64,000 nucleotides of DNA, taken from [Collinsella] massiliensis (GTDB lineage Bacteria; Actinomycetota; Coriobacteriia; Coriobacteriales; Coriobacteriaceae). Of the stretch, positions 22,130-59,437 are shown piece after piece (position 1 is the stretch's first letter; each line of letters starts with the position of its first letter). The position numbers were made by a program, and so were the translations under genes. The notes beneath the pieces are model-generated. The model was given only the letters and a program-made list of their open reading frames with translations, did not search any database and was not told the origin of the DNA. The stretch spans positions 1 through 64,000 of the forward strand of contig CAPI01000058.1 of NCBI GenBank assembly GCA_000333815.1, in the 5' to 3' direction.

Positions 22130-23527
22130 ATGCGCGCCTTTGTAGATCGAGAACGTGAACTACAGACCCTTGAGCGCGAATACGCCCGGAGGGAAGCTTC
22201 CTTCGTGGTGGTTTATGGCAGGCGCCGTGTGGGAAAGACTGAGCTCATCTCGCGTTTCATTCAGGACAAGCTTGCACTGTACTACCTCGCGACGGAGGAG
22301 CCCGAGCTCCAAAACCTCGAGAGCTTCCAAGCACTTGCGGCGGATTTCTTAGGGAGCGACTTGTTGCGTTCTGCTCACATCAAGCGTTGGGAAGACATCT
22401 TCCGAGAGCTTGTCCGCACGCACGATGCGACGCGCGAGCGCGCGGTGATCGTTATCGACGAGTTTCAGTATCTCGGCAAGGCAAACCCGGCCTACCCCTC
22501 GATATTCCAGCGCATTTGGGACACGATGCTCAAAGATGCAAACGTCATGCTCATCCTCTGCGGGTCGCTCATCTCGCTCATGAAAGATCAGGTGTTGTCC
22601 GAGGAAAGCCCGTTGTACGGGCGTCGGACGGCGCAGATCCGGATGGGGCAGATCACATTTTCGCATTACCGAGAGTTCCTTCCGGGGCACACGATGCGCG
22701 AGCTTGTGGAACGCTATGCCGTGACCGGTGGGGTGCCCAAGTACATCGAGCTGTTCGAAGACCAAGATGATGTCTTCGCGGCGATTTCTGAGAACGTGCT
22801 CGACCGCAACGGGTTTCTCTATGACGAGCCGAACTTCCTGTTGAGCCGTGAAGTCCCCGATGTGGGCACGTACTTTGCGCTCATCCGCGCGATCGCGGGC
22901 GGCGCGCGCCGGCCGAGTGAGATATCGCGCGCATTCGGCATGAAGCAGACGAGCCTGAACAAGTATCTCAAGACGCTCATCGACCTGGATGTTTTGGAGC
23001 GTGAAGTGCCGGTAACGGAGAGTAACCCTGGTAAGAGCAAGAAGAGCCTGTACAACATCAAGGACAACTTCCTCCAGTTCTGGTTCAAGTTCGTGCTGCC
23101 CAATCTGAGTTACCTGGAAACTGGGCGAACAGCTGCGGTCGAGCGACGCATCCGTGAGCATTTCATCGATAGTCACGTTGCGTTCGTGTACGAGGGTGTT
23201 TGTCGGGAGCGACTATGGGACATGGCCGATTCCGGGGTGTTGGGATTCGTGCCCGAGCGCGTCGGCCGCTGGTGGTCGGGCGGCGACGAGATCGATGTTG
23301 TCGGCTTGAGTGCCGCCGAGAAGTGTGCCGTATGGGGTGAGTGCAAGTTCTGGAAGGATCCGGCGGGTGCCAACGTCCTGCGCGATCTTGAGAACAAGGT
23401 GGCACGTGTGCCGTGGGAGCGGGACGGCCGAACGGACATATTTGTGCTTTTCAGCGTGAGCGGGTTCACCGATGGCCTGCATGAGCTTGCAAGCACTAGG
23501 GATGACGTGCTGTTGGTGGGGGACTGA
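22130..23527 (+). CDS. AAA ATPase with DUF234 nuclease-like C-terminal domain
   Basis: 465 residues. Walker A GRRRVGKTE at about residues 29-37, Walker B VIVIDEFQYL near residue 105, and an archaeal-ATPase/winged-helix region (RRPSEISRAFGMKQTSLNKYLKTL) around 265-290. The C-terminal DUF234 region shows EIDVVGL and GECKFW, the Asp and ExK spacing of a PD-(D/E)xK fold. ATG 22130 with GGGAGG. The family is widespread in gut bacteria; biological role unproven, defence or mobile-element functions have been suggested. Confidence 0.88.
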   Translation: MRAFVDRERELQTLEREYARREASFVVVYGRRRVGKTELISRFIQDKLALYYLATEEPELQNLESFQALAADFLGSDLLRSAHIKRWEDIFRELVRTHDATRERAVIVIDEFQYLGKANPAYPSIFQRIWDTMLKDANVMLILCGSLISLMKDQVLSEESPLYGRRTAQIRMGQITFSHYREFLPGHTMRELVERYAVTGGVPKYIELFEDQDDVFAAISENVLDRNGFLYDEPNFLLSREVPDVGTYFALIRAIAGGARRPSEISRAFGMKQTSLNKYLKTLIDLDVLEREVPVTESNPGKSKKSLYNIKDNFLQFWFKFVLPNLSYLETGRTAAVERRIREHFIDSHVAFVYEGVCRERLWDMADSGVLGFVPERVGRWWSGGDEIDVVGLSAAEKCAVWGECKFWKDPAGANVLRDLENKVARVPWERDGRTDIFVLFSVSGFTDGLHELASTRDDVLLVGD

Positions 23528-23555
23528 TAATCTGGTGTCAGGCACCAAATTATCA
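23525..23555. terminator. Bidirectional hairpin between convergent genes
   Basis: TGATAAT.TGGTG-tcagg-CACCA.ATTATCA forms a 12-bp stem with two mismatched bases. Its left end contains the stop of the ATPase gene and its right end the stop of the convergent pseudogene. TGGTGTCAGGCACCA-like cores are frequent dispersed hairpins in gut bacteria. Confidence 0.7.
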
Positions 23556-24063
23556 AGTTGTTCTTTGGAACGGAATGTGCACATCGAAAATGATCTCATT
23601 GCAGTAATTGCGTTTGAGCATTCGTTTTCGATGTAGCTCCTGCGCGACAACGCAGGGTTCGCGCCCTCTCCGACATGCCTTCATTTCGATATCGCGCGCA
23701 CGGGTCACGCCCCGATATTCGCGTTTGCCTCCGTCGAATAGCCAATATCGTGCAAATTGGTCGGCGGTCGCTTCTTCGTCCCTGTGTTTGCTGGATGATT
23801 TGTTGAGCTTGAGCTGCGTCGTGGGAGCTCCATCGTTCAGGATATTCGGCGGGACACATATATCGCGTTACGTGCAGGCCGCCGTCGTCAAAGAAGATGA
23901 TGCGTCCGCATTCGTTGCAAAGACAGGTCTTCGCTTTTTCGTCGGGGAGATAGGGTAGGCTGAAGAGCACCTCGCTCTCCATGCATTCATTCATGAGGTC
24001 GTCAGATACAAAGTAATGGATGGTTTCGATATCGTTGCCGCGGACGCAGCAAATAAGTGCCAT
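23553..24063 (-). pseudogene. Frameshifted unknown protein with zinc-binding CxxC
   Basis: Reading on the minus strand from ATG 24063 gives MALICCVRGNDIETIHYFVS and a CLCNECGRIIFFDDGG zinc motif. Near 23865 the natural-looking continuation moves by one base to a frame reading NILNDGAPTTQLKLNKSS through ARYWLFDGGKREYRG to the stop at 23553-23555, which sits in the convergent hairpin. The total of 511 bases is 3n+1, consistent with one inserted base. Homology unknown; frameshift could be decay or an assembly indel. Confidence 0.6.
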
Positions 24064-24298
24064 GAGAGCTCCTTGAGGGCGATGAGCGCGTGTGCCGATC
24101 ATTGTCTGTCATTACTTTACGGCTTGGGCTAGCGTTGCCTGCGGTAGGTTGGATGAGGCTCGTGATTGTTGTAATGCGTATGGAAAGGCATAGCAAGTTG
24201 CAGGGTTGTAGCAATGGATTTGTTGCCCCGAGTGGGTTGAAGACATATTGATTAAGTTATGTTAGAGCGAAAAACACGTTTGCAGAAGGCCTCTACAG

Positions 24299-24928
24299 AT
24301 GAATGGCGTGTTTAAAGAGCATACGTTTCCGAAGTACAACGATGCGGACGTTATGAAGCCTCAGATGAACGGGCTTGATGATCCTACGATGCGCGACTTT
24401 ACACTTCTTGACATATCTGCATTCGCGAAGGCCGAGTTTAAGGGGGAACGGTTCGAGGAAGAGTTCATCAATTCTTTTCTTAATGCTGCCATGGAACTTG
24501 CCAGAGCTGGCAGAAAGGCGGCTGACAAACCCGGGGTGTACGTATTCTATATGCATTCCTATGCATTACCAGTTCTTTACCTGGCAAGACATTGCATGGA
24601 GCTATCAATTAAGAGGGCAATTCGAAAATGTGGCTTCGAGCCGAAAAAGATTCACGGACTTAAGGAGCTCTGGAATTCTCTCGTGTCGAGATTTCCTAGG
24701 CAGAGGAATCGTGAGGATAGGAGAGTAATTAAAAACATGGGCAACTTCGTTGCCGCAATGGCGTCCGTAGACAACAACGGGATAAGCCTACGATATCCAA
24801 AAAACAAATCAGGGAGCTTTACGCAAGATAGGATGCATTTTGTGAACGGCGAGCAAGTCGCATCATATCTTGAGATGTTCGTTAGCCAACTAGAACTAGT
24901 TGATTTTGATTCAATAAGGCAAAGCTGA
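24299..24928 (+). CDS. HEPN-like helical protein, unknown
   Basis: 209 residues, AT-rich codon use unlike the flanking core genes. The middle contains YALPVLYLARHCMELSIKRA and KIHGLKELWNSL, the RHxxEL...HxLxxLW pattern typical of HEPN-like helical proteins in accessory regions. The RNase motif Rx4-6H is not clear. No good Shine-Dalgarno precedes ATG 24299. It lies between the frameshifted gene and the retron and may be a stand-alone defence gene. Confidence 0.6.
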   Translation: MNGVFKEHTFPKYNDADVMKPQMNGLDDPTMRDFTLLDISAFAKAEFKGERFEEEFINSFLNAAMELARAGRKAADKPGVYVFYMHSYALPVLYLARHCMELSIKRAIRKCGFEPKKIHGLKELWNSLVSRFPRQRNREDRRVIKNMGNFVAAMASVDNNGISLRYPKNKSGSFTQDRMHFVNGEQVASYLEMFVSQLELVDFDSIRQS

Positions 24929-25030
24929 TTTCAGCCATGGCGAGACGCATCGGGCAACTGATGCGTGCTCACGCAGTGAATATTAGTACGCGTTTTGGAC
25001 TCGGAGTGATGTGCTGTGGGAACTGTGAAG

Positions 25031-25080
25031 TTTGCTAATAGCGAATTTTCTTCTCTATTAGCAAACTTTTGTGCTATACT
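25031..25080 (+). promoter_or_regulatory. Retron promoter with two operator half-palindromes
   Basis: TTTGCTAATAGCGAA (25031-25045) and its inverted relative TTCTCTATTAGCAAA (25051-25065) form an inverted pair and each is itself nearly palindromic. An extended -10 TGCTATACT (25072-25080, TG then TATACT) follows directly. Transcription would start near 25087, exactly where the retron a1 repeat begins. The XRE protein encoded downstream is the obvious candidate to bind these sites. Confidence 0.65.
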
Positions 25081-25086
25081 CTGATC

Positions 25087-25318
25087 ACGGTAACACCGAG
25101 CAACGCTCGGAGGTCCTATCCCAGACTTGGGTGGCAAGCAATTGCTGCCGTGGGACGCAGCTTGCTGAGTCCTATTTTACCTCGGTACACGGGGGCGCCC
25201 GCGCTGGGAAGCGCGGGCGCACAAGACGGGTGGATGCCTCTCAGATGCACCTCTCCTTTCTTTGGGACGTTGCATGTGCAACGGGAAAGGAGGTGTCGCA
25301 ATGACGTTTTTGTTACCG
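25087..25318 (+). ncRNA. Retron msr-msd RNA (hybrid with small mRNA)
   Basis: Candidate a1 CGGTAACA (25088-25095) and a2 TGTTACCG (25311-25318) are exact complements and flank four hairpins: CCGAGC/GCTCGG (25096-25110), CCCA/TGGG (25120-25131), GCAAGC/GCTTGC (25134-25165) and a perfect 10-bp GCGCCCGCGC stem (25195-25220), then a long hairpin 25248-25295 capped by CGTTGC-ATGT-GCAACG. The 3' arm of the last hairpin contains AAGGAGGTG, the ribosome site of the small ORF at 25301, and a2 lies inside that ORF. Branching G and exact msd limits cannot be fixed by eye. Confidence 0.7.
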
Positions 25319-25474
25319 CCGTCTGGAGGCAAACGTTCCGCCTCGCACCAGCGGGTGCGAGTGACGAACAAGAAGATGAAGCTCGTTGTTTTTCGAGCGC
25401 TTTTCAAGTTCGTCGAGTTTCTAGGCATGGTTCTTAAGGTCTTAATTGAGGCCAGGGACTTGTTTGAAAACTAG
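25301..25474 (+). CDS. 57-residue hydrophobic/basic peptide, candidate retron toxin
   Basis: ATG 25301 is seven bases after AGGAGG (25288-25293), the strongest ribosome site of the island. The N-terminal half is basic (SGGKRSASHQRVRVTNKK); residues about 27-52 form a hydrophobic or amphipathic helix (LVVFRALFKFVEFLGMVLKV). This layout resembles small membrane-active toxins. The ribosome site pairs with CACCT..CCTTTC (25248-25260) in the retron RNA hairpin, so translation should be blocked when the RNA is folded or reverse transcribed. XRE and RT genes follow. Toxicity is inference; no homologue is recognised. Confidence 0.6.
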   Translation: MTFLLPPSGGKRSASHQRVRVTNKKMKLVVFRALFKFVEFLGMVLKVLIEARDLFEN

Positions 25475-25542
25475 CGGTGCGGGAAATCCACCCGAACTTG
25501 AAGTATCGTCCCAAATGGGACTATCTGATATGGAGGGCGTGC

Positions 25543-25818
25543 ATGATTGGCGAGACGCTTAGGCGGTTAAGGGGGATTTACGGTTATTCTGCACGGGAGA
25601 TGAGCTCTTTACTTGGCATTTCAAGCAGTTATCTATCTGAAATAGAGAAAGGTAAGAAGGAGCCGTCGCTTGAGATCGTTAATCACTATGCTGAGATTTT
25701 TGGAATGCGCCCCTCATCTCTATTGCGTTTTTCCGAAGAGTATGATCGTGCGGAGTTCCACGAAGGGGGCCAAGAGTTTATTTCTAAGCTCATGGCAAAG
25801 CTTATCGATTCATTTTAG
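25543..25818 (+). CDS. XRE-family regulator of the retron
   Basis: 91 residues from ATG 25543 (GGAGGG at 25532-25537); upstream in-frame extension lacks a ribosome site. The Cro/CI helix-turn-helix spans residues 1-60 (LRRLRGIYGYSAREMSSLLG, then SSSYLSEIEKGKKEPS). The C-terminal 30 residues are acidic and may contact a partner. It lies 68 bp after the small ORF and 8 bp before the RT. HTH-associated retrons form their own class (type VI in the published retron scheme as I recall it). Confidence 0.88.
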   Translation: MIGETLRRLRGIYGYSAREMSSLLGISSSYLSEIEKGKKEPSLEIVNHYAEIFGMRPSSLLRFSEEYDRAEFHEGGQEFISKLMAKLIDSF

Positions 25819-25826
25819 GTGGAAGA

Positions 25827-26753
25827 ATGAGACCTTCAATTCCCCTCAATCAGTGCATGTTCTATAAGTGCAGGAGCAAAAAAGCTCTTGCAAGATGCCT
25901 GCTGCTTGATCTTCATCAACTCCAACGGCGTAGCGAATGGATACAATATCGAGTTCATGCCGAGCAAAAGGCCTCTGGCGGATTGAGGGTTATTTACGCT
26001 CCAGCCGACGAGCTGAAGTCGGTTCAAAAGGTAATCAAGTCTCGACTTCATCGAATCGAAGTTCCTTCTTGGGTTTATTCCGGGGTTAAAGGCCGCTGCC
26101 ACATTGACAACGCCAAGCATCATGCGGGTAGTCGTTATTTTGTATTGTCGGATATTTCCTCATTTTATGAGAACTGCACAAGAGACGCCGTTTACCGCTT
26201 TTTTCGCGATGACCTTCTCTGCTCTCCTGATGTGGCATCTTTGTTGGCTGATTTGACAACTGTGAGAAACGCAGAGGGTAAGACCGTTAATCCAACTGGC
26301 AGCCCATGCAGCCAATTAATCGCATACTTCTCCTATCGGTCTATGTTTCACGAGATTGCCTCTATCGCAGATCGCTACGGCTGTAAATTCAGCCTCTATG
26401 TTGATGACCTAACCATTTCAAGTGAATCGCCAATTTCGAATCCAAGAAACCTCATGAAACAAGTTGCCAAATCCCTAAGGGCGTATGGACATAGGGTCAA
26501 ATGGGAAAAGACCGGATACTTCGGAAAAAATCAGTTTAAGCTTGTCACGGGAGTTGCGATAGATCAGCAGGGCGAGTTAAACATTCCGAATCATTTGGGT
26601 GAGGCCGTAATCACCGGACTAAAGGAGACGCTCTCGGGCGATAGGAGTGAAATCGCCCCAACATTAGGACGAATTAACGCGGCTAGGCAAATTGACGGAA
26701 GGGTTTTTTCGGAAGCGAGGCGTCTTGTTGAGAATGCGCAGCGCTGTTTTTAA
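25827..26753 (+). CDS. Retron reverse transcriptase
   Basis: 308 residues. Retron hallmarks are all present: NAxxH (NAKHH, residues 95-99), motif A with D109 (LSDISSFYEN), motif B (PTGSPCSQ, 156-163), catalytic YVDD (191-194) and VTG (240-242). There is no maturase or endonuclease domain, which excludes group II introns. The enzyme would use the upstream RNA as primer and template to make msDNA. ATG 27 nt after the regulator start of translation end; AGGTGGA precedes it. Codon use is AT-richer than the core genome, suggesting transfer. Confidence 0.93.
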   Translation: MRPSIPLNQCMFYKCRSKKALARCLLLDLHQLQRRSEWIQYRVHAEQKASGGLRVIYAPADELKSVQKVIKSRLHRIEVPSWVYSGVKGRCHIDNAKHHAGSRYFVLSDISSFYENCTRDAVYRFFRDDLLCSPDVASLLADLTTVRNAEGKTVNPTGSPCSQLIAYFSYRSMFHEIASIADRYGCKFSLYVDDLTISSESPISNPRNLMKQVAKSLRAYGHRVKWEKTGYFGKNQFKLVTGVAIDQQGELNIPNHLGEAVITGLKETLSGDRSEIAPTLGRINAARQIDGRVFSEARRLVENAQRCF

Positions 26754-26894
26754 GAATGGACGATAGCGTTCAGGCTTTGACTACAAGGCAGTGGTGGTTG
26801 GCGGCGTCATAGTCCGAGTCTATGTGCCGTGCGATAATACAAAATGTTCATGGTGTGATTCGCTTAAGCTGCTAATTTGATTGGATGTGCGCAT

Positions 26895-28496
26895 ATGCCG
26901 ACTCTCAACTGGATGGGCAAGGAGAAGGTGGTAAATCACCACCGTGACGTCCCATATCGCGTGCTTGAACGCGTGCCTGAGAAGGGCGTGCTCGACAGTC
27001 GTGGCTCGGACTGCGGGAACATGATCATCCACGGAGATAATCTCGAGGCGCTGAAGGCGCTGCTGCCCGAATACGAGGGCAGGGTCGACTGCATCTACAT
27101 CGATCCACCGTACAACACCGGCAACGAGGGCTGGGTCTACAACGACAACGTGAACGACCCGCGCATAAGGAAGTGGCTTGGACAAGTTGTCGGTAAGGAG
27201 GGCGAGGACTTCTCCCGTCACGACAAGTGGCTGTGCATGATGTACCCAAGGCTTCAGCTGCTGAGGAGAATGCTGTCATCCACCGGTCTTATATTCATCA
27301 GCATTGACGATAATGAACAGGCAAATTTGAAGAGTGCATGTGATGAGATCTTCGGCGCTGATAACTTTCAGGGATGCATTCACTGGCGTCGGCGGCATAA
27401 TCAGCCCAACGATAAGACTAAGTTAATTGGGTTGGTTGCAGAGTACATCCTGTGCTACTCAAAGTCTAAAAGGGCTCTCAAACAACTTATGGGATCCGAG
27501 AGCTACGGTAAAGTGGAAGTCACTGGCAAGTTTTCAAATCCAGATAACGATCCGCGTGGAGATTGGGCGTCAAAGCCTTGGAAGGCCGCTACGGGGCAGG
27601 GTGGCACAGCCTATGAAATTGTGGCGCCAGATGGCACCACGTTCAACGAGGTTTGGCTCGGCGGTAGAGACACCTTTGAGAACCTTCTTGAAGATAAGCG
27701 AATTTATTTTCCCAGGTCGCGCGGTGGCAAAGCGGGGTCTCCTCGCAAGAAGTACTATAAGAGCGAGCGAGTGGACGAGGGGCAGTGTGCGACAAATTGG
27801 TGGCCAAATGATGTCGCAGGCAGCAATCAAAATGCGACCGATGAGCTTGCGTCAATATTTCCCGAGCTTGATGGGAAAGCTTTCGACAATCCCAAGCCAG
27901 CCGAATTGATTTCAAGAATTGTCGGAATGTCGACACATAGAAATTCGATAGTACTTGACGCTTTTGCCGGCTCCGGTACGACGGGAGAGGCAGTGCTGAG
28001 GCAGAACCGCTCGGATGCTGGTAGTCGTAGTTTCATTCTGATTGAAATGGGCGATTACGCCGACGAGGTCACCGCCGAACGGGTGCGCCGCGTTATCACG
28101 GGATATGGTGAGGGCGCCAACGCCACCGAGCCAGTTGACTCCGGTTTCTCTTACCATAAGCTCGGTTCTGCGTTATTCCAGGGGGATGGGATGTTGAATC
28201 CTAAAGTAACACGCTCAGACCTGGCGCGTTACGTGTGGGCGACCGAGACGCGCAAGCCCTACGAGGATCTAACCTCTGAGCACCCCTATCTTCTTGGCGA
28301 GCATGCTCAGACTGTCTACTACCTTGCCTACGATCCTGGTGAGGAGACGACGCTCACCTACGATCTGCTGCGCGAACTCCCTCGAAAGGGCTCGCCGACC
28401 GTGATCTACGCCGACCGGTGCGCCATCGCGCCCGAGCGCCTGGACGAGATGGGCATCGTTTTCAAGCGCGTGCCCGATCAGATAGCGAGGATCTAG
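26895..28496 (+). CDS. mod: Type III restriction system DNA methyltransferase (Mod)
   Basis: 533 residues from ATG 26895. Motif IV DPPY (residues 70-73, YIDPPYNTG) precedes the SAM-binding motif FAGSGTT (about 358-364): the beta-class N6-adenine order of type III Mod proteins. The C-terminal part after residue 420 is variable. GC content falls inside the central third (about 27.3-28.0 kb), the expected place of the target recognition domain, suggesting recombination of specificity. Two bases separate its stop from res. Confidence 0.93.
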   Translation: MPTLNWMGKEKVVNHHRDVPYRVLERVPEKGVLDSRGSDCGNMIIHGDNLEALKALLPEYEGRVDCIYIDPPYNTGNEGWVYNDNVNDPRIRKWLGQVVGKEGEDFSRHDKWLCMMYPRLQLLRRMLSSTGLIFISIDDNEQANLKSACDEIFGADNFQGCIHWRRRHNQPNDKTKLIGLVAEYILCYSKSKRALKQLMGSESYGKVEVTGKFSNPDNDPRGDWASKPWKAATGQGGTAYEIVAPDGTTFNEVWLGGRDTFENLLEDKRIYFPRSRGGKAGSPRKKYYKSERVDEGQCATNWWPNDVAGSNQNATDELASIFPELDGKAFDNPKPAELISRIVGMSTHRNSIVLDAFAGSGTTGEAVLRQNRSDAGSRSFILIEMGDYADEVTAERVRRVITGYGEGANATEPVDSGFSYHKLGSALFQGDGMLNPKVTRSDLARYVWATETRKPYEDLTSEHPYLLGEHAQTVYYLAYDPGEETTLTYDLLRELPRKGSPTVIYADRCAIAPERLDEMGIVFKRVPDQIARI

Positions 28497-28498
28497 TC

Positions 28499-31123
28499 AT
28501 GGAGCTCAAGCAGTACCAGAAGGACGTGCTCAAAGAGGTTGGGCGCTTCACCCATACTTACGCGCTGATGGGGGATGCCGCTACCGCATACGACGACTTC
28601 ATGAACGCCATTGGCCTCACTCCGGGGAAGGACGGCGTCGCCCGCTACAGCGACGATCTCGGCGGCGCTCCGAAGGTATGCGTAAAGGTGCCGACGGGCG
28701 GTGGAAAGACCTTTATCGGCGCGTGCGCCATTGATGTGCTTTCCGAGGCACTGCCCTCGCACGACGATGTGGTGGTGTGGCTCGTACCGCGCCGAGAGAT
28801 TCTAGCGCAGACGTTGCGAAACTTCCGGGATCCCGGGCACTTTCTGCGCATGCGGCTCGACCGTGATTTCGCTGGACGTGTGGAGGTGCTCGACAAGGAG
28901 GACGGCCTGCGCGGGCGCGGCTTTTCCGCTGCGACCGTGGGCGACCAGCTTACGCTCTTCGTGCTCTCATATGACTCGTTCAAGAACAAAGATGGAAGGC
29001 GGGCCTACGCGGAGAACTCCTCGCTCGCCGGCCTCACGGAGTGGCAGCATGCCGCCGGTACGTCTGTGGATGTGGAGGGCGCAGATGACACCGCGCTCAT
29101 ATCCGCGCTCGCCGGAACGAACCCAATCGTGATTGTGGACGAGAGCCACCATGCCAAATCAAAGCTCTCGCTCGACATGCTGCGCAATCTCAACCCGCGC
29201 TTCGTACTGGAGCTTACAGCGACGCCCGGCAAGGGCGCGAACGTTATCGCTCAGGCGACAGCGCGCCAGCTCAAGCGTGAGGAAATGGTGAAGCTGCCCG
29301 TGGTGGTCTACCGACGCCCTGACAAGCGGACGACCATTACCGATGCGGTAATGCTTCAGCGAAGGCTTGAGGCCATCGCTGAGCAGGACGAGAAGAGAAC
29401 CGGGCGCTACATACGTCCCATCGTACTTTTCCAAGCAGAGCGACGCGGTGTTGAGGGCGCCGAGACCTACGCGAAGCTCAAGCAAAAGCTCGTTGAGGGC
29501 GGCATCCCCGAGGAGCAGATAGCCGTGCGTACGGGTGACGTCGACGAGATCGGCGGAGTCGACCTCATGAGCAGGGAGTGCCCCGTCCGCTTCATCATTA
29601 CCGTGGAGGCGCTTGCGGAGGGCTGGGACTGCCCCTTCGCCTACGTGCTTGCTACCGTTGCCAACAAGAGCTCGCAGGTGAGCGTTGAACAGATCGTGGG
29701 TCGTGTGTTGAGGCAGCCGTACGCTACGCGCGCTGGAGCTCGCAGCCTCAACATTGCCTATGTGCTTACGGCGTCTGCGGATTTTGACGCAACGCTTGAA
29801 CAGGTTGTGCGCGGTCTCAACGGCGTCGGCTTCTCACAGGAGGACGTAGAGGTAGCAGATGTTGATTCCGCCACAGGGCAGGGGCGGATTGACTTTTCGG
29901 CATCGGATGTTGAGAGCGGCAGTGAGGACGAAGGCGTACGTGATGATCTCAACCTCGACGGGTTAGACCTGCGCAGCGCTGCGGGCGGTTCCTGGCATGA
30001 AGCCGTTGAAGACATGCCTTCGATTGACAAAATCTTGGATGAGTCCGGCTCTCTCGAGGAGCGCTTTGAGCATGAGGTCGGCTCGCAGTCCGGTGAGATG
30101 CTTGGCGGCGGTTTAGGAGGAGGTGCCAACGTGTACCACATGCGTGCAAGCGTCGCGGAATCAGCCGAATCGATTTCGATTCCGCAGTTCTTTATCCATG
30201 TTGACGGAGGACTCTTCACCGACGATGACGTTTGGAAGCCGCTTGACCGCGAGGACCTGCTTGCGGACTTCAAGCTTTCGAAATATGGCATCGATGGGGT
30301 GAGCATCAATGCGACGGCGTTCTCTGACGCTCGCTCTATTGACCTCGCAGATGATTCGGATGAATACCGGATTCGCTGGCTTAGTGAAAGAGACAGGAAG
30401 AGCATGCGCGTGCTCTTCTCCACGATGAGCGACGAAGGGCAGCGCGAGAGCTTGCGGGCGATGGCGATCAAGATGATGTCGCCCCAGTTCAAGAACACCT
30501 TTGGAGAGGCTCAGATTTCCGCCTTCACTGCTCGTGTCATTGAGGACATGGATCAGCCGACCGTTGAGGCGTGCTTCGACAGCATTGCCAACACCGCGCG
30601 TGCCATCATGGATGCAATCAGGGGGATTGCAGACGAGTTCTGCGAGGATCGCTTCGATAAGATGCTCTCTTCTGGGGCTATCGAACTGCGCCCGGGCTAC
30701 CACTTTCCGGAGGGGTTTGTACAGTCAAACCCCCTTACGAGTTACGACAAGCCGCTGTATGAGGCAGAGGACGGTAAGATTGACGGCTTCGAGCGGAGAA
30801 TGGTGGAGTTGCTTGCCAATAGCCAGCGTATCGTGTGGTGGCATCGAGTGATTGAGCGCCGCAAAGGTGAGTTCAGCATCAACGGGTTTATCAACCACTA
30901 TCCGGACTTCCTTGCCCTGCGCGATGATGGAGTGCTTATGGCTGTTGAGACCAAGGGCGAGCACCTAAAGAGCGAAGATGCCCTCCGGAAGCTTCGTTTG
31001 GGCACGCGCTGGGCAGACATGGCGGGCAACAGGTTCAAGTACTTCATGGTGTTCGATCGTGAGGCGCTGGATGAGCCCAACGCATTCACGCTGGCAGAGT
31101 TCGGGTCGGAGATACTGGGGTAA
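28499..31123 (+). CDS. res: Type III restriction endonuclease subunit (Res)
   Basis: 874 residues from ATG 28499, two bases after mod. SF2 helicase motifs: Walker A VPTGGGKT (residues 64-71), DESHH near 217, and the C-terminal helicase block ALAEGWDCPFAYVLA with QIVGRVLRQP. The nuclease site is at the C-terminus: PDF near 802 and VETKG (ExK) about 16 residues later. Works with Mod to cleave DNA after translocating between two unmethylated sites. Intact length. Confidence 0.93.
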   Translation: MELKQYQKDVLKEVGRFTHTYALMGDAATAYDDFMNAIGLTPGKDGVARYSDDLGGAPKVCVKVPTGGGKTFIGACAIDVLSEALPSHDDVVVWLVPRREILAQTLRNFRDPGHFLRMRLDRDFAGRVEVLDKEDGLRGRGFSAATVGDQLTLFVLSYDSFKNKDGRRAYAENSSLAGLTEWQHAAGTSVDVEGADDTALISALAGTNPIVIVDESHHAKSKLSLDMLRNLNPRFVLELTATPGKGANVIAQATARQLKREEMVKLPVVVYRRPDKRTTITDAVMLQRRLEAIAEQDEKRTGRYIRPIVLFQAERRGVEGAETYAKLKQKLVEGGIPEEQIAVRTGDVDEIGGVDLMSRECPVRFIITVEALAEGWDCPFAYVLATVANKSSQVSVEQIVGRVLRQPYATRAGARSLNIAYVLTASADFDATLEQVVRGLNGVGFSQEDVEVADVDSATGQGRIDFSASDVESGSEDEGVRDDLNLDGLDLRSAAGGSWHEAVEDMPSIDKILDESGSLEERFEHEVGSQSGEMLGGGLGGGANVYHMRASVAESAESISIPQFFIHVDGGLFTDDDVWKPLDREDLLADFKLSKYGIDGVSINATAFSDARSIDLADDSDEYRIRWLSERDRKSMRVLFSTMSDEGQRESLRAMAIKMMSPQFKNTFGEAQISAFTARVIEDMDQPTVEACFDSIANTARAIMDAIRGIADEFCEDRFDKMLSSGAIELRPGYHFPEGFVQSNPLTSYDKPLYEAEDGKIDGFERRMVELLANSQRIVWWHRVIERRKGEFSINGFINHYPDFLALRDDGVLMAVETKGEHLKSEDALRKLRLGTRWADMAGNRFKYFMVFDREALDEPNAFTLAEFGSEILG

Positions 31124-31139
31124 GGGAGGCGCTTGCCCA

Positions 31140-32756
31140 TTGACTGCGCTTAAGGACGACAAGGAATTCCGGTCCCTTGATGATGCTCGCTGGGAAGACC
31201 TCTGTTATCTGCTATTCAAAGAGGAGTACGGGGGACTTCGTCGCGTCAATGGCAGTGGGGGTGACGATGGCATCGACGCCTATGTGGGCGACTTCGTAAA
31301 CCCCAGCATTGTGTTCCAGTTCAAATTCTTCCCTAACGGGCTCGGAAAGAAGCAAGTCAGGCAAATTAAGAGCTCCCTAGAAACGGTACTCGAAAAACGA
31401 CCTGGTATAGATAGGTGGATTCTGGTGAGCTCTGCTGATCCAACGCCTGACGCGCAACTCGCGTTGGACGGCCTCTTTGCCGAGCATTCGGGAGTTGAAA
31501 TAGATTTCTTCGGCGAAAGTGAAATGAGGCACAAACTAATCAGGCGTCCAGCCGTGCGGAGGACATTCTACGACGATGGAATGGAGACTCTTAAAGGCGT
31601 TCTCTCCCTAGAGGGCATGGATCCTCTCAAGCGGGCTTCCGAAGGGGTGAGGATTTACAACGAGGCTGTCGTAGACGAGCGCCTCGTTGCCACCGTTACC
31701 ACTGATGGGAAAACCACGATAATCGCCTATTCCCTCCATCCGGACTTTGCTGATTCGCCGCTCAAGTTCACAATGCGCCTTAAATCGAAGAAGGGTGTCG
31801 AAGCTTATAACAGCCTTGTGCGTCGCGGAATGCCTGCCGAATTGTCCGCCGAAGATGTAGAACTTGACATTTCCGACCTTCCTGGAGTCGGGGCGGACGA
31901 GGGCGAGCTCCAGCGGCTTGAGATTATTCCGCAGATTAATCCCCGGCCCTCTATGCTTCGGTTCTACGCATCTGAGGAGCTGGGCAATAGTCAGGCTCTG
32001 TTCGTGGAGCTCAGAACGACAAGCGAGGGAAGCGCGCATGTTGTCAGGTCGAATGCGATTCAGAAGAACGCTCCCGTCCGATTTGAAATAAATATACCCC
32101 TCGCAACGCGAGAAGACGGTGCTACTGGGACGCGGATCATCAACATCACGCCTCAGCTCATTGGGAATAAGGTGAGCGTCGCCCTCAAAGGGGCTAGATT
32201 TCTCGCACAGCTTTCCCAAACCAAAAGGCTTGGCATCTCCAACCCCGACGAAGAAGTTACCGACGCCATCTTTGCCACTCTTGGAGGCATTGACGAGGAT
32301 GGTATTTGGGCGCATCAGCTTGAATACATTGAGGCGGTGGAGAGGGTCTGCCGATTCTTCGACATCGATCCCGCGATTGACGACAACCTGAATGACGAAG
32401 AGTTCTTCCTTTTCGTAATGCGCACTGCCGAGAGGATACGCACGCAGGGATCCGAACTTGATGGAACGACAACCTTTAGTCTCAGCGAGCTAAATCCCAA
32501 CTTTATTCGCTCGGTAAATGGTAAGGAGGCAATCAGTCTTGTAGCGGACATGGATTGGTCGGGGTCTATGTTCGGAACCGAAGTCAACGCGAGAATTCGC
32601 ATTGTAGCGAGCGGAGTCCCGACTGTCGAAAACGTCGGCGGCGACAAGTGGACCCTCGCCGTCAAGGGCAGCTATCGGTGTTTTATCGGAAAGAGCGAGG
32701 ATGATTCGAAGACGGGGGGAGCGCCTCCTATCTTTCCGCACTTGGTTCGAGATTAA
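31140..32756 (+). CDS. Mrr-like PD-(D/E)xK protein in the type III operon
   Basis: 538 residues from TTG 31140 (AGGGAGG at 31124-31130), 16 bp after res. The N-terminal 120 residues match Mrr-type nucleases: E19 in WEDLCYLL, GGDDGID with D46, and QFK at 60-62. The remaining 400 residues are a large region of unknown fold, possibly a sensor. Type III systems normally need only Mod and Res, so this is an accessory nuclease; it could attack modified DNA or act when the system is inhibited. Its stop overlaps a convergent pseudogene. Confidence 0.7.
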   Translation: MTALKDDKEFRSLDDARWEDLCYLLFKEEYGGLRRVNGSGGDDGIDAYVGDFVNPSIVFQFKFFPNGLGKKQVRQIKSSLETVLEKRPGIDRWILVSSADPTPDAQLALDGLFAEHSGVEIDFFGESEMRHKLIRRPAVRRTFYDDGMETLKGVLSLEGMDPLKRASEGVRIYNEAVVDERLVATVTTDGKTTIIAYSLHPDFADSPLKFTMRLKSKKGVEAYNSLVRRGMPAELSAEDVELDISDLPGVGADEGELQRLEIIPQINPRPSMLRFYASEELGNSQALFVELRTTSEGSAHVVRSNAIQKNAPVRFEINIPLATREDGATGTRIINITPQLIGNKVSVALKGARFLAQLSQTKRLGISNPDEEVTDAIFATLGGIDEDGIWAHQLEYIEAVERVCRFFDIDPAIDDNLNDEEFFLFVMRTAERIRTQGSELDGTTTFSLSELNPNFIRSVNGKEAISLVADMDWSGSMFGTEVNARIRIVASGVPTVENVGGDKWTLAVKGSYRCFIGKSEDDSKTGGAPPIFPHLVRD

Positions 32757-33345
32757 TTGCGCTCCGATTGGTTGGGCGGGCGGTCTCCCCGCTCTTGTGC
32801 TGTGGCTCTTTCGGTCGTAGGGGGTTCACAGAAGGCGCGCGCGGGAACGAGGCGGCGACCTAGGGCGATTTCCTTCGCTCGCATATCGCGCTTGCTCAGG
32901 CGGAGCTGCTCAAGCACGGGCTAGATACGCGTGCTTGAAGACGGTGGGGTTTTCGTCGAGCGGTAAGCCCCATTCGAGCATGGCCGTTCGAATGTCGCCT
33001 GCACCGCTCGGGATGAAGGGCAAGGTCTGTGAGTCAGGGCGCGCGTTGTACAGCGGGTTGGGTGTCTTTATGTAGTGGATGGCGTGGCGATCCGTGCCAC
33101 GCACGAAGTGCACCGGGCTTTCTCCGTCGTGAGCGAGCCGATTCTCGCGCACATACCTCGTCTTCTTTCCCTTGTCTGGCGCAGCCATTGTCCCATGCAT
33201 ACACTTTGTGACGCGCTGATAGCCTGCGCCCATATGTGAAATGCCCTCCATCACAGGGTTTTCCAATCCAAGAAACGAGGGACAATTCAAAATCTATTCC
33301 CGCGCCGATGAGGTATGCTTCAGTCGCGAAAGGAATCGCCGCCAT
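32753..33345 (-). pseudogene. Degraded unknown gene with two likely frameshifts
   Basis: On the minus strand three frames join naturally: MAAIPFATEAYLIGAGIDF (from 33345), then NCPSFLGLENPVMEGISHM through KTPNPLYNARPDSQT to FKHAYLAR (about 33287-32915), then VLEQLRLSKRDMRAKEIALG to a stop at 32753-32755. Each joint needs a one-base indel. The central frame alone is an open frame of 126 codons (32910-33290) that could be misread as a gene. Product not recognised; boundaries approximate. Confidence 0.4.
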
Positions 33346-33410
33346 TCCAGTCAGTTCTTTTCTCAAGGTAGAATGTCGCCATCGGTCATCTCGCTCTTAG
33401 GGGGAGCATC

Positions 33411-35486
33411 GTGTCCCAAGCAAAGTTCACCTGGATTCAGGCATATTCCGAAATCGCAAAAGCAATTAATAACTTGAATCGGGGCGAAGCCGAGCTCATC
33501 GATATTTTCTTGCGTGTGTTCAATGAGGAAGCGAACGGGTTAAAGTTCTCGTATAAAGATGGGGAGCCAGGCAAGGAGTCCGGCATCGACCCATTTACGT
33601 TCTTTGCCGCCTTCAATCGTGGATTGTCGAAAGTCAATCGCATTAAAGCAATTCGCCTTGTAATGGAGGAACTGGGCATAGGTGCTTCGCTCCCCTCGGA
33701 TTTCGAAGGTGTTCCCACGGTCTACAACAAGAAGTCGTGGTTCTTTGCCGGAAAGGGAGAACGAGGGGCTAGCGATATTAACAATCTCTGGCTTCTATTC
33801 AAATCCGCGGCGGAGTTTGCCATTGAGTCCAACCAGAGTCACCGCTCTGCGTTTGTCGCAGCGTTCGATGTTGTGCGCGCGCAAAAATGCGTCACATGGA
33901 ATATCACCATCGGTTTATTTTGGATGTTTCCAGATCAGTTCCTGTCGCTAGACAACAACAGTAGGGATTATCTCGCCACTAAGTATGGCATAAAGGTGCC
34001 GGGCGGATTGCACACCGGTGAGGAGTACCTCTCCCTCACGGATGCCGTAAGAGCTGCGACGAGCAAACCGTTTTATGAGATTTCCGCCGATGCCTACCAT
34101 TGGAAACCCGCGACCGAGGAAGCACTGAAATCCGGCGATTTGAGCAATGCGTCGTCTCACGCGGAGCAAAACACTGACGAGGATTCCTCCATCCCAAGCG
34201 CACCAAAACAATACTGGTGGCTCACTGCCAACAGAAAGATTTGGTCGTTCTCTGAGATCACCGCAGGGGAGGAACAGAGCTACACTATTTACAACGAAAA
34301 GGGCAACCCCCGACGCATCTACAAGAACTTCCTGGATGCCCGCGCGGGCGATGTGGTCGTTGGCTATGAAGCTGCGCCGGTAAAGAAGGTCGTTGCCTTA
34401 TGCGAGGTCTCAAGGCCTCAAGACGGCGAGCGCTTGTACTTCAAAAAGATCAGGGATCTCGATGCCCCAATTGCGCTCTCCGACATCAAGGCAGATCCCG
34501 TTCTCTCGCAGTGCGAGTTTTGCAAGAATCCCAATGGCAGCTTCTTCAAGTTGACGGAGGATGAATACCTACGGCTAGAAGAGATGTTTGACGAGGACGA
34601 CGTGTCTCCGGTCCAAGCCTCGGCAAAGAGCTCCTACGATGATGACGAATTCCTCCATGATGTCTTCGTGTCCGAAGCTGATCTCACCTCTATGAAAGGC
34701 CTGCTTGAGCGTAAGAAGAACCTTATCTTGCAGGGTGCACCGGGCACCGGCAAGACCTTCGCCGCCAAACGCCTCGCATACGCCATGATGGGCGAGGAGG
34801 ATGACTCGCGCATCGGCTTAGTGCAATTCCATCAGTCCTATACCTACGAGGACTTCGTTATCGGGTACCGTCCCAACGGCGAGGGCGGCTTCGATGTACA
34901 ACCGGGCATCTTTGCGGACTTTTGCTCGCGCGCAGCGCGTGACAGCGGACGTAAATACTTTTTCATCATCGATGAGATCAACCGCGCGAACATCTCCAAA
35001 GTGTTTGGCGAGCTGCTCATGCCCATCGAGGCCGACCATCGTGGGGACTCCATCGAGCTCCCCATCGATCGCCGCCGGCTCGCCGTGCCGGACAATCTGT
35101 ATATCATCGGCATGATGAACACGGCGGATCGCGGGTTAGCGCTCATCGACTACGCCCTTCGTCGACGTTTTGCGTTCTTCGACATGAAGCCCGCGCTCGA
35201 TGCGCCCGGCTTCCAGGCGATGCTTCAAAAGACTAACAATAAGAAGCTCAGCGCGTTGGTCGACAAGGTGCGCGAGATTAACAAGGAGATAGAAAAGGAC
35301 CCGGCGCTCGGAAAAGGATTCTGCATCGGGCATAGCTACTTCTGCGTGTCTGAAAGTATCACGGACGCGGACGTCCATGGCATCGCCCGCTTCGAGATCG
35401 AGCCGCTCATCGCCGAGTACTGGTTCGATGACCAGCAAAGAGTTCGCACGCTCACCGATAAGCTCGAGGGTGTGTTTAACGCATGA
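33411..35486 (+). CDS. mcrB: McrB-type AAA+ restriction protein with EVE domain
   Basis: 691 residues. An N-terminal helical region (1-255) is followed by a PUA-like EVE domain (about 265-390: QYWWLTANRKIWSF, then DVVVGYEAAPVKKVVALCEV), which in relatives reads modified cytosines. The AAA+ GTPase motor has GAPGTGKT (442-449), IIDEINRA with D521, and MNTADR near 569. GTG start 33411 after AGGGGGAG. Together with McrC it restricts DNA carrying modified bases. Overlaps mcrC by ATGA. Confidence 0.9.
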   Translation: MSQAKFTWIQAYSEIAKAINNLNRGEAELIDIFLRVFNEEANGLKFSYKDGEPGKESGIDPFTFFAAFNRGLSKVNRIKAIRLVMEELGIGASLPSDFEGVPTVYNKKSWFFAGKGERGASDINNLWLLFKSAAEFAIESNQSHRSAFVAAFDVVRAQKCVTWNITIGLFWMFPDQFLSLDNNSRDYLATKYGIKVPGGLHTGEEYLSLTDAVRAATSKPFYEISADAYHWKPATEEALKSGDLSNASSHAEQNTDEDSSIPSAPKQYWWLTANRKIWSFSEITAGEEQSYTIYNEKGNPRRIYKNFLDARAGDVVVGYEAAPVKKVVALCEVSRPQDGERLYFKKIRDLDAPIALSDIKADPVLSQCEFCKNPNGSFFKLTEDEYLRLEEMFDEDDVSPVQASAKSSYDDDEFLHDVFVSEADLTSMKGLLERKKNLILQGAPGTGKTFAAKRLAYAMMGEEDDSRIGLVQFHQSYTYEDFVIGYRPNGEGGFDVQPGIFADFCSRAARDSGRKYFFIIDEINRANISKVFGELLMPIEADHRGDSIELPIDRRRLAVPDNLYIIGMMNTADRGLALIDYALRRRFAFFDMKPALDAPGFQAMLQKTNNKKLSALVDKVREINKEIEKDPALGKGFCIGHSYFCVSESITDADVHGIARFEIEPLIAEYWFDDQQRVRTLTDKLEGVFNA

Positions 35487-57618: not shown

Positions 57619-57658
57619 GGCGACCGTGGGTTCAAAACGGCTCAGCGCCTCATCTGTG

Positions 57659-57755
57659 AGTTCAAAATAGTGACTAGAAAATTGAACTTTCCTATCGCGC
57701 CCGGCGTGCTATACTGCCTGAAATTGAACTTACCTTCAGATGGTTCAATTTCAGG
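57659..57755. promoter_or_regulatory. Promoter/operator of the HTH-aminotransferase gene
   Basis: A perfect 13-bp inverted repeat CCTGAAATTGAAC (57717-57729)/GTTCAATTTCAGG (57743-57755) lies just after an extended -10 TGCTATACT (57707-57715). A second pair of half-sites GTTCAA (57660-57665) and TTGAAC (57682-57687) lies upstream of it. The GTTCAA half-site thus occurs four times around the promoter. The downstream product has its own Cro/CI HTH, so autoregulation is the simple reading. Confidence 0.65.
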
Positions 57756-57838
57756 GAGCGCCACCCGGACGAATATCGCGTTTCGCTCGTCACGCGGCGC
57801 TTGAAGCCGGGTATGCGCCCATGCAGTAAGGGGGTCAG

Positions 57839-59437
57839 ATGGCAGACCAGGGATTCGCCGAACGGCTAGTCCAGGCGATGGCCGCCGCGGGCATGAAGCA
57901 GGCCGACCTCATCCAGGCGGCGGCACAGCGCGGCGCCAAGCTCGGAAAAAGCCAGGTGAGCCAGTACGTGAGCGGCAAGGTCATGCCGCGTCCCAAGGTG
58001 ATGGGCCTGCTCGCGGCCGTGTTGGACACCACCCCGGAATGGCTCGCGACGGGGGAGGGCGCCCCGCCCGTGCCCGCGCGCGCGTCCGCCCGCGCCGGCG
58101 CCCCGGAGCCCGTGCCTGCCTCCACGGCACCCACGCCCGACGCGCGAGCTGCCGCGCGGTCTGAGGCCGCCCGCACCACGTCCCCCCGCCAATCCGCGTC
58201 TTCCCAAAGGAGCACCCCCATGCGCCAGTTCACTAAGTCCTCCAAGCTCGACAACGTTCTCTACGACGTCCGCGGTCCCGTGGCCGACGAGGCTGCCCGG
58301 ATGGAATCCGAGGGCCTGCGTATCCTCAAATTGAACATCGGCAACCCCGCGCCCTTCGGCTTCCGCACGCCGGACGAGGTCGTGACCGACATGCGCCAGC
58401 AGCTGCCCGACTGCGAGGGCTACTCGGATTCGCGCGGCCTCTTCTCTGCGCGCAAGGCCATCATGCAGTACGCGCAGATCAAGGGGCTGCCGAACGTTTC
58501 CATGGACGGCATCTACACGGGCAACGGCGTCTCGGAGCTCATCCAGCTCACGCTCAACGCGCTGCTGGACAACGGCGACGAGATCCTCATCCCCAGCCCG
58601 GACTACCCGCTCTGGACCGCCTGCGCCACGCTCGCTGGCGGCGTCCCGGTACACTACATCTGCGATGAGCAGGCCGAATGGTGCCCCGACATCGCCGACA
58701 TGGAGGCGAAGATCACCGCGCGCACGAAGGCCATCGTCATCATCAACCCCAACAACCCTACGGGCGCGGTCTACCCGCGCGAGATCCTGGAGCAGATCGT
58801 CGAGGTCGCGCGCAAGCACCAGCTCATGATCCTTTCGGACGAGATCTACGACCGCCTGTGCATGGACGGCTATGAGCATATCTCCATCGCCTCGCTCGCG
58901 CCCGACCTGCCGTGCGTGACGTTCTCCGGCCTCTCGAAGAGCCACATGATCGCCGGCTACCGCATCGGGTGGATGATTCTCTCCGGCAACAAGCGCTGCA
59001 TGGCGGATTTCGTCTACGGCATCAACATGCTCTCGAACATGCGCCTGTGCTCGAACGTGCCGGCGCAGTCCATCGTGCAGACGGCGCTCGGCGGGCACCA
59101 GAGCGTGAAGGGCTACGTGGCACCCGGCGGCCGCGTGTACGAGCAGCGCAATTACGTGTACGAGGCGCTCAACGCCATCGACGGCATCACCGCGGTGAAG
59201 CCCAAGGCGGCGTTCTACATCTTCCCGAAGATGGACGTGAAGAAGTTCAACATCACCGATGACGAGCAGTTCGCGCTCGACCTGCTGCACGAGAAGCGCA
59301 TCCTCATCACGCGCGGCGGCGGCTTCAACTGGGGCGCGCCGGATCATTTCCGCATCGTGTACCTGCCGCGCATGGAGGTGCTGCACGAGGCCATGGACGA
59401 CCTCGCGGACTTCTTCGCCCATTACCGCCAGAGCTGA
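57839..59437 (+). CDS. HTH-aminotransferase fusion (class I/II PLP enzyme)
   Basis: 532 residues. N-terminal Cro/CI-type HTH (about 1-75: MKQADLIQAAAQRG, LGKSQVSQYVSGKVMPRP), an Ala/Pro-rich linker (80-127), then an AlaA/AspC-like aminotransferase with NPNNPTGA and the PLP lysine in SGLSKSHMIAGYR. An internal ATG at 58220 preceded by AAAGGAG (58206-58212) would give a free 405-residue enzyme beginning MRQFTKSSKLDN. Likely interconverts alanine/glutamate and keto acids and may sense substrate to regulate itself. Promoter palindromes lie upstream. Confidence 0.9.
   Translation: MADQGFAERLVQAMAAAGMKQADLIQAAAQRGAKLGKSQVSQYVSGKVMPRPKVMGLLAAVLDTTPEWLATGEGAPPVPARASARAGAPEPVPASTAPTPDARAAARSEAARTTSPRQSASSQRSTPMRQFTKSSKLDNVLYDVRGPVADEAARMESEGLRILKLNIGNPAPFGFRTPDEVVTDMRQQLPDCEGYSDSRGLFSARKAIMQYAQIKGLPNVSMDGIYTGNGVSELIQLTLNALLDNGDEILIPSPDYPLWTACATLAGGVPVHYICDEQAEWCPDIADMEAKITARTKAIVIINPNNPTGAVYPREILEQIVEVARKHQLMILSDEIYDRLCMDGYEHISIASLAPDLPCVTFSGLSKSHMIAGYRIGWMILSGNKRCMADFVYGINMLSNMRLCSNVPAQSIVQTALGGHQSVKGYVAPGGRVYEQRNYVYEALNAIDGITAVKPKAAFYIFPKMDVKKFNITDDEQFALDLLHEKRILITRGGGFNWGAPDHFRIVYLPRMEVLHEAMDDLADFFAHYRQS

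Follow-up and report, generated by a model that had tools for sequence, protein, structure and literature searches.

A single open reading frame in the window, i.e., the whole 64,000-nucleotide stretch of [Collinsella] massiliensis DNA that was analysed, joins an HTH domain of the Cro/CI type to an aminotransferase of the AlaA type, and an array of hexameric half-sites lies upstream of it (Table 1). The arrangement proposed in the preliminary description, with an HTH domain and a linker ahead of a full aminotransferase, was evident from the reading frame and from Pfam matches of the long form to HTH_3 (residues 19-69, E 1.7e-6, above cut-off) and Aminotran_1_2 (residues 162-514, E 3e-53). Mean top-residue frequencies across relatives were 0.86 for the enzyme, 0.66 for the HTH and 0.20 for the linker, and the HTH was predicted in a structure model as five confident helices with a pLDDT of about 95. 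To judge by these domains, annotation of the gene as a plain aminotransferase overlooks a predicted regulator.

Table 1. Features of the fused gene and its upstream region (positions within the window)
Feature	Positions	Strand	Basis or remark
GTTCAA half-site	57630..57635	-	Hexamer match
GTTCAA half-site	57660..57665	-	Hexamer match
TTGAAC half-site	57682..57687	+	42 bp ahead of the 57724 half-site
Extended -10, TGCTATACT	57707..57715	+	By reading and pattern; flanked by half-sites 57682 and 57724
Inverted repeat with perfect arms, CCTGAAATTGAAC-N13-GTTCAATTTCAGG; putative main operator	57717..57755	.	Candidate, sequence only
Long-form Shine-Dalgarno, AAGGGGG	57828..57834	+	Read from sequence
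Fused gene, long form: Cro/CI HTH, linker and AlaA-type aminotransferase	57839..59437	+	532 aa, ATG start; ORF and Pfam
HTH domain, residues about 6-72	57854..58054	+	Recognition-helix region KLGKSQVSQYVSGK kept among relatives
Ala/Pro-rich linker, residues about 75-124	58061..58210	+	Non-conserved; low-confidence/disordered in model
Internal Shine-Dalgarno, AAAGGAG	58206..58212	+	Ahead of in-frame ATG 58220
Short form: aminotransferase alone	58220..59437	+	405 aa; in-frame ATG 58220
Codon of predicted Schiff-base lysine K367 (in SGLSKSH)	58937..58939	+	Invariant among relatives; PLP-lysine role by homology

Residues 4-404 of the short form matched E. coli AlaA (PDB 4cvq) with 56% identity over ~400 residues (E 1e-161), and the AlaA active-site motifs SGLSKSH, INPNNPTG, KLNIGNPAPFG and YPLWTA were kept at or near 100% in relatives. 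The score of the window protein against the NCBIfam alanine aminotransferase model PRK08363 was 352 bits, which is below the 534-bit cut-off. By sequence, the enzyme part is an AlaA-type (glutamate-pyruvate) aminotransferase with intact catalytic residues and a predicted alanine-forming activity. Compared with the 4cvq chain, which has no HTH, the fused gene adds both an HTH and a half-site array. The enzyme part of the structure model, which was built from a thin alignment of 39 rows, was poor (mean pLDDT 68, pTM 0.50) and was set aside.

The best 80 of 164 matches in one scan of genome contigs came from Enorma, Collinsella, Olsenella, Slackia, Parvibacter, Bifidobacterium and Lachnospiraceae and, together with same-genus and same-family matches, made up the set of loci that was compared. 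Matching ORFs of at least 500 bits were kept, and the resulting 111 rows represented 98 distinct ORFs. One locus (L105), N-masked in the HTH, was removed to leave 97 for upstream counts, and filters for redundancy left 76 loci for hexamer counts, 71 for analysis of the Shine-Dalgarno sequence (SD), 73 for spacing and the -10 pattern, and 36 distant loci. Twelve further regions were read as a check only and are outside the statistics.

The fusion was found in Coriobacteriales, Bifidobacterium and Lachnospiraceae, i.e., in Actinomycetota as well as Bacillota, and among 39 aligned members the enzyme domain was present in every one and HTH_3 in 37. On these sequences the gene is a member of a widespread family, not an isolated case. 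Of 65 genomes in the same family, 62 had a high-scoring match whose open frame spanned at least 489 codons; the three genomes that lacked one were 72% (G041), 89% (G059) and 99% (G061) complete. Within the class, where unfetched matches were judged by frame length only, 87 of 197 genomes matched at E 1e-80 or better and such a gene was absent at this threshold from the other 110. The matches comprised 82 genomes of the same order, where open frames ranged from 441 to 587 codons and the shortest (in G194) is probably cut by a contig end, and five genomes outside the order, with four frames of 414-434 codons and one of 514 that holds a stop, all five of which read as stand-alone AlaA. In a tree of 45 enzyme sequences, one branch (97/97) separated 39 fused from 6 stand-alone rows, and because of this one branch, a single origin of the fusion, with later spread between phyla, is possible.

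A Blautia genome (G070) carries a stand-alone AlaA gene (L165), which has no half-site array, beside the fused gene; its product is 68% identical to the enzyme in the window. A conserved operon with a dCMP deaminase or LigT gene was considered and rejected, as these genes were present at only 4 and 11 of 80 loci, respectively, and neighbours were not conserved. Elsewhere in the window, an island of lower GC (22130-35486; GC 0.49-0.58 over 20-36 kb) resembles a defence island. Its genes include those for an ATPase_2/DUF234 protein, a reverse transcriptase (25827-26753), an N6/N4 DNA methylase (26877-28496), a ResIII helicase like those of type III R-M systems (28418-31123) and an AAA_5 protein (33411-35486) that we take to be McrB-like.

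Five hexamers, rather than the four GTTCAA-type half-sites counted earlier, were found upstream of the gene, at 57630, 57660, 57682, 57724 and 57743. The palindrome of the preliminary description was present with perfect arms of 13 bp each (57717-57729 and 57743-57755) separated by a 13-nt spacer, the cores of the arms being the hexamers at 57724 and 57743. Among relatives, 76 non-redundant upstream stretches contained 304 TTGAAC/GTTCAA hexamers as opposed to a mean of 9.6 and a maximum of 20 after shuffling, and the 97 upstream stretches of 250 bp contained 391 (16.1 per kb), compared with densities of 0.41 per kb in other flanks and 1.14 per kb within genes. At least two hexamers preceded 90 of 97 fused relatives and at least three preceded 85, whereas none occurred in the 250 bp ahead of any of six stand-alone AlaA genes (L165 and L169-L173), one of which (L170) had a single hexamer at -415. 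Distances between hexamers clustered near 20, 31, 41, 52 and 62 bp, with a period of 10.5-10.7 bp in three orientation classes; among the 36 distant loci the period was 10.4 bp, with an R of 0.47 that was reached in none of 1000 random sets. This array, present with the fused gene and absent at the six stand-alone relatives, provides strong comparative support for the earlier suggestion that the gene controls its own transcription.

Seven of the 97 fused loci carried one hexamer or none, and six of these showed near variants (ATGAAC, ATAAAC or GTAAAC) while L111 showed none; two of the variant loci carried KLSKSQMSQYLSGR. Variant half-sites of the forms ATGAACT, ATAAACT and GTAAACT were noted upstream at L102, L107, L110, L112, L118 and L128, and altered recognition-helix flanks (KLSKSQ.SQYLSG) at some loci with variant half-sites. 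These cases, too few for a claim, hint that the HTH and the half-site change together. A further, intragenic operator, suggested by AAATTGAAC at 58328 within the LKLN codons, was considered and rejected; Coriobacteriales relatives mostly have AAGCTCAAC, and the sequence is ascribed to chance or codon use because only some loci share it.

An extended -10 pattern was present upstream at 46 of 73 loci compared with 16.7 expected, while a generic sigma-70 scan returned no promoter above threshold at the window gene. The placement of half-sites around this element bears on the sign of the predicted control. In Coriobacteriales, half-sites lay mostly 25-29 or 18-19 nt ahead of the -10 and 14-16 nt after it, and in several Lachnospiraceae a TTGAAC 23 nt ahead of the -10 could double as the -35. 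The half-sites well upstream of the -10 would suit activation by the long form, through help in recruiting RNA polymerase in one ligand state, and GabR, a MocR protein, is an activator of transcription according to PMC6917764. Activation is nevertheless unlikely, as the half-sites located 14-16 nt past the -10 start at many loci and those at the -35 place in several Lachnospiraceae both suit occlusion of the promoter.

The closest solved relative of the HTH was evident from PDB matches, the best of which (E 8e-5) has KLSKSTLSQYV where the window protein has KLGKSQVSQYV, a near identity in the recognition-helix region. At a threshold of E 0.001 there were four PDB matches, all of them named CI; presumably, these entries are CI of the lactococcal phage TP901-1. 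The operator half-site of TP901-1 CI is given as the consensus AGTTCAYR in PMC8516035 and as AGTTCACG in PMC7250872. Flank frequencies in the upstream stretches gave the half-site of the fused gene as AGTTCAATTT on the other strand, i.e., AGTTCAA as compared with AGTTCAYR. This likeness supports, without proving, that the HTH of the fused protein reads TTGAAC half-sites. In contrast with the fused protein, TP901-1 CI has an oligomerisation region, not an enzyme, as its C-terminal part, as described in PMC4941734.

The internal SD and in-frame ATG described previously were both present, and the reading frame from this ATG encodes 405 aa. The internal ATG coincided with the start position of stand-alone AlaA. 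An ATG was found no more than 13 codons ahead of the KSSKLDNVLYDVRGP motif in 96 of 98 distinct fused ORFs, the exceptions being L111 and L115, and a junction ATG was found in 69 of 71 non-redundant loci. Mean SD energy at these 69 internal starts was -8.4, as opposed to -4.5 after synonymous recoding (p 3e-12) and -3.5 at 944 other in-frame Met codons (p 1e-33), p-values that overstate independence since the loci are related. Energies of -6 or stronger were noted at 61 of the 69 internal starts compared with about 17% of other Met codons. In the window gene, none of 200 synonymous recodings matched the observed SD strength; this single-gene test is weak in Lachnospiraceae, where A/G-rich codons often yield a fair SD upon recoding. 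A 120-nt fold prediction for the window gene placed the GGAG of the internal SD mostly in paired positions.

The SD occupied all three codon phases among the 69 loci (31, 22 and 16, respectively), and the peptide it encodes was mostly RST after Q, K, P or A in Coriobacteriales and often GG in Lachnospiraceae. The Arg codon that overlaps the SD was AGG in each of the 54 genes that carry this motif, many of which are from close Collinsella strains, as opposed to 40 of 1785 (2%) other Arg codons. Because the SD is kept in three phases within a non-conserved linker, nucleotides rather than peptide appear to be under selection, and the internal SD and ATG look to be retained for their role in RNA. 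Thus, the internal SD and ATG were kept beyond chance across relatives, and the idea that one gene specifies a DNA-binding enzyme and a free enzyme gains strong comparative support from their conservation.

Exceptions to this pattern were L111 and L115, which lacked the ATG, L130, which had a weak site, and L164, which had a weak SD. The first three are Eggerthellaceae-type loci with a Pro-rich junction (PLPPI). No second AlaA of high identity was found in the genomes of L111, L115 and L130, and for this reason the short form appears dispensable there. These three loci, together with the match between the internal ATG and the start of stand-alone AlaA, are what might be expected if the internal SD and ATG were a vestige of an older stand-alone alaA that became joined to an HTH gene, with only the fused protein made or of consequence. 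A vestige should erode, however, and the SD has instead persisted in a non-conserved linker in three phases, over different peptides and in both Actinomycetota and Bacillota, with AGG at every one of the 54 Arg codons noted above; a vestigial start is therefore distinctly unlikely.

The reach of the predicted regulator beyond its own promoter was assessed from paired hexamers. In the 2.33-Mb genome from which the window derives, the pattern TTGAAC N3-33 GTTCAA occurred once, at the fused gene. In ten other genomes there were 2-12 inverted pairs per genome, mostly near the number for a reversed-pattern control; in several of these genomes the pairs included the promoter of the fused gene, and outside that gene they were near background. 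Direct pairs with a Y-T flank, searched for in seven genomes, were at the fused gene in 3 of 3 cases in G070, 3 of 5 in G068, 2 of 3 in G010 and 0 of 1 in G071, and there were none in G002, G007 and G069. Dense half-site arrays thus seem to mark mainly the fused gene, and a few outside targets may exist. It is very unlikely that the fused protein mainly regulates other genes, such as those of amino-acid or B6 metabolism, and binds its own promoter incidentally; any genome contains many single hexamers, and targets of low affinity would escape these searches, but the inverted pair of its own genome is only at the fused gene and the Y-T-flanked direct pairs of G070, G068 and G010 are mostly there as well. 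A wide regulon in the genome of the window was likewise unsupported; 7 of 18 direct TTGAAC pairs belonged to a dispersed repeat (TTGAACCCGTCCC..TGACTC..) and not to an array. This repeat, which continues as TTGAACCCGTCCC..TGACTC..TGAGTCA..TTGAAC in at least seven places of the genome (L140-L142 and L151-L154), has an inner TGACTC palindrome and is unrelated to the operator.

Enzymes fused to DNA-binding domains are known, and MocR proteins, which offer the nearest comparison in build, have mostly given up catalysis. The enzyme part of the fused protein instead closely resembles true AlaA and retains every motif, and its gene has a conserved and, by prediction, functional internal start for the enzyme alone. 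Like MocR, GabR and PdxR, the fused protein has an HTH linked to a fold-type I PLP domain (Aminotran_1_2), and candidate direct and inverted boxes lie near its own promoter, as in MocR operators, for which PMC5320631 describes several boxes of both kinds. An ordinary MocR/GabR regulator is almost certainly not what the gene encodes, as the HTH is of the Cro/CI (XRE) type rather than a GntR wHTH, with matches to HTH_3 and other Cro/CI models only, HTH_3 in 37 of 39 members and no GntR model listed or N-terminal GntR domain found, and as the enzyme part shares 56% identity with E. coli AlaA. By its sequence, therefore, HTH-AlaA is built like MocR but is not MocR by descent. No account of a Cro/CI-AlaA fusion or of its internal start was found in searches of open-licence PMC papers.

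Taken together with the above, it is probable that the locus is a self-contained, self-regulating alanine aminotransferase unit, in which HTH-AlaA and free AlaA are both produced and the former binds the half-sites, most likely to repress. One mRNA would offer two ribosome entry points, the first for HTH-AlaA and the second for AlaA alone, and both proteins would thus be made from the fused gene. HTH-AlaA, in the form of an aminotransferase dimer or a larger oligomer, would bind several TTGAAC half-sites aligned along the same face of the DNA. Each AlaA dimer would carry two HTH heads on flexible linkers and could bridge same-face half-sites at varied distance, an arrangement that fits both the variable, whole-turn spacing of the half-sites and a linker that is free to vary. 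Since half-sites flank or overlap the core promoter, bound HTH-AlaA would block polymerase, and repression rather than activation is the more likely sign of control. Free AlaA, we would guess, supplies most of the activity.

Since every AlaA active-site motif is retained, metabolite feedback through PLP or alanine, as envisaged in the preliminary description, is plausible. Binding might be tuned by alanine, by its amino or keto partners or by the PLP/PMP state, the candidate ligands being alanine, pyruvate, glutamate and the PLP/PMP state itself. The short form may also pair with the long form. In the Tn5 transposase and its inhibitor, the long form may be partnered by a shorter one that is devoid of the N-terminal DNA-binding part; these proteins are unrelated to HTH-AlaA and serve as a precedent for mixed dimers only. 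As a more tentative extension, which we regard as possible rather than likely, free AlaA and HTH-AlaA would mix to form one-headed dimers with a poor hold on phased half-sites, and repression would be set by the relative amounts of the two products, themselves tuned by the ligand state of the shared active site. If so, an active enzyme would be its own transcription factor and set its own dose, and beside MocR there would be a second route, independent of the first, to transcription factors derived from PLP enzymes.

Across two phyla of gut bacteria, one gene, accompanied by its proposed operator, seems to maintain an apparently fully active enzyme in both a free and a DNA-bound form. If the proposed self-regulation is true, the locus would represent a feedback unit for metabolism that is both minimal and portable, and a clean system in which to ask how catalytic cycling might switch DNA binding. 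It would also point to the way in which Collinsella, Bifidobacterium and Lachnospiraceae set their alanine synthesis.
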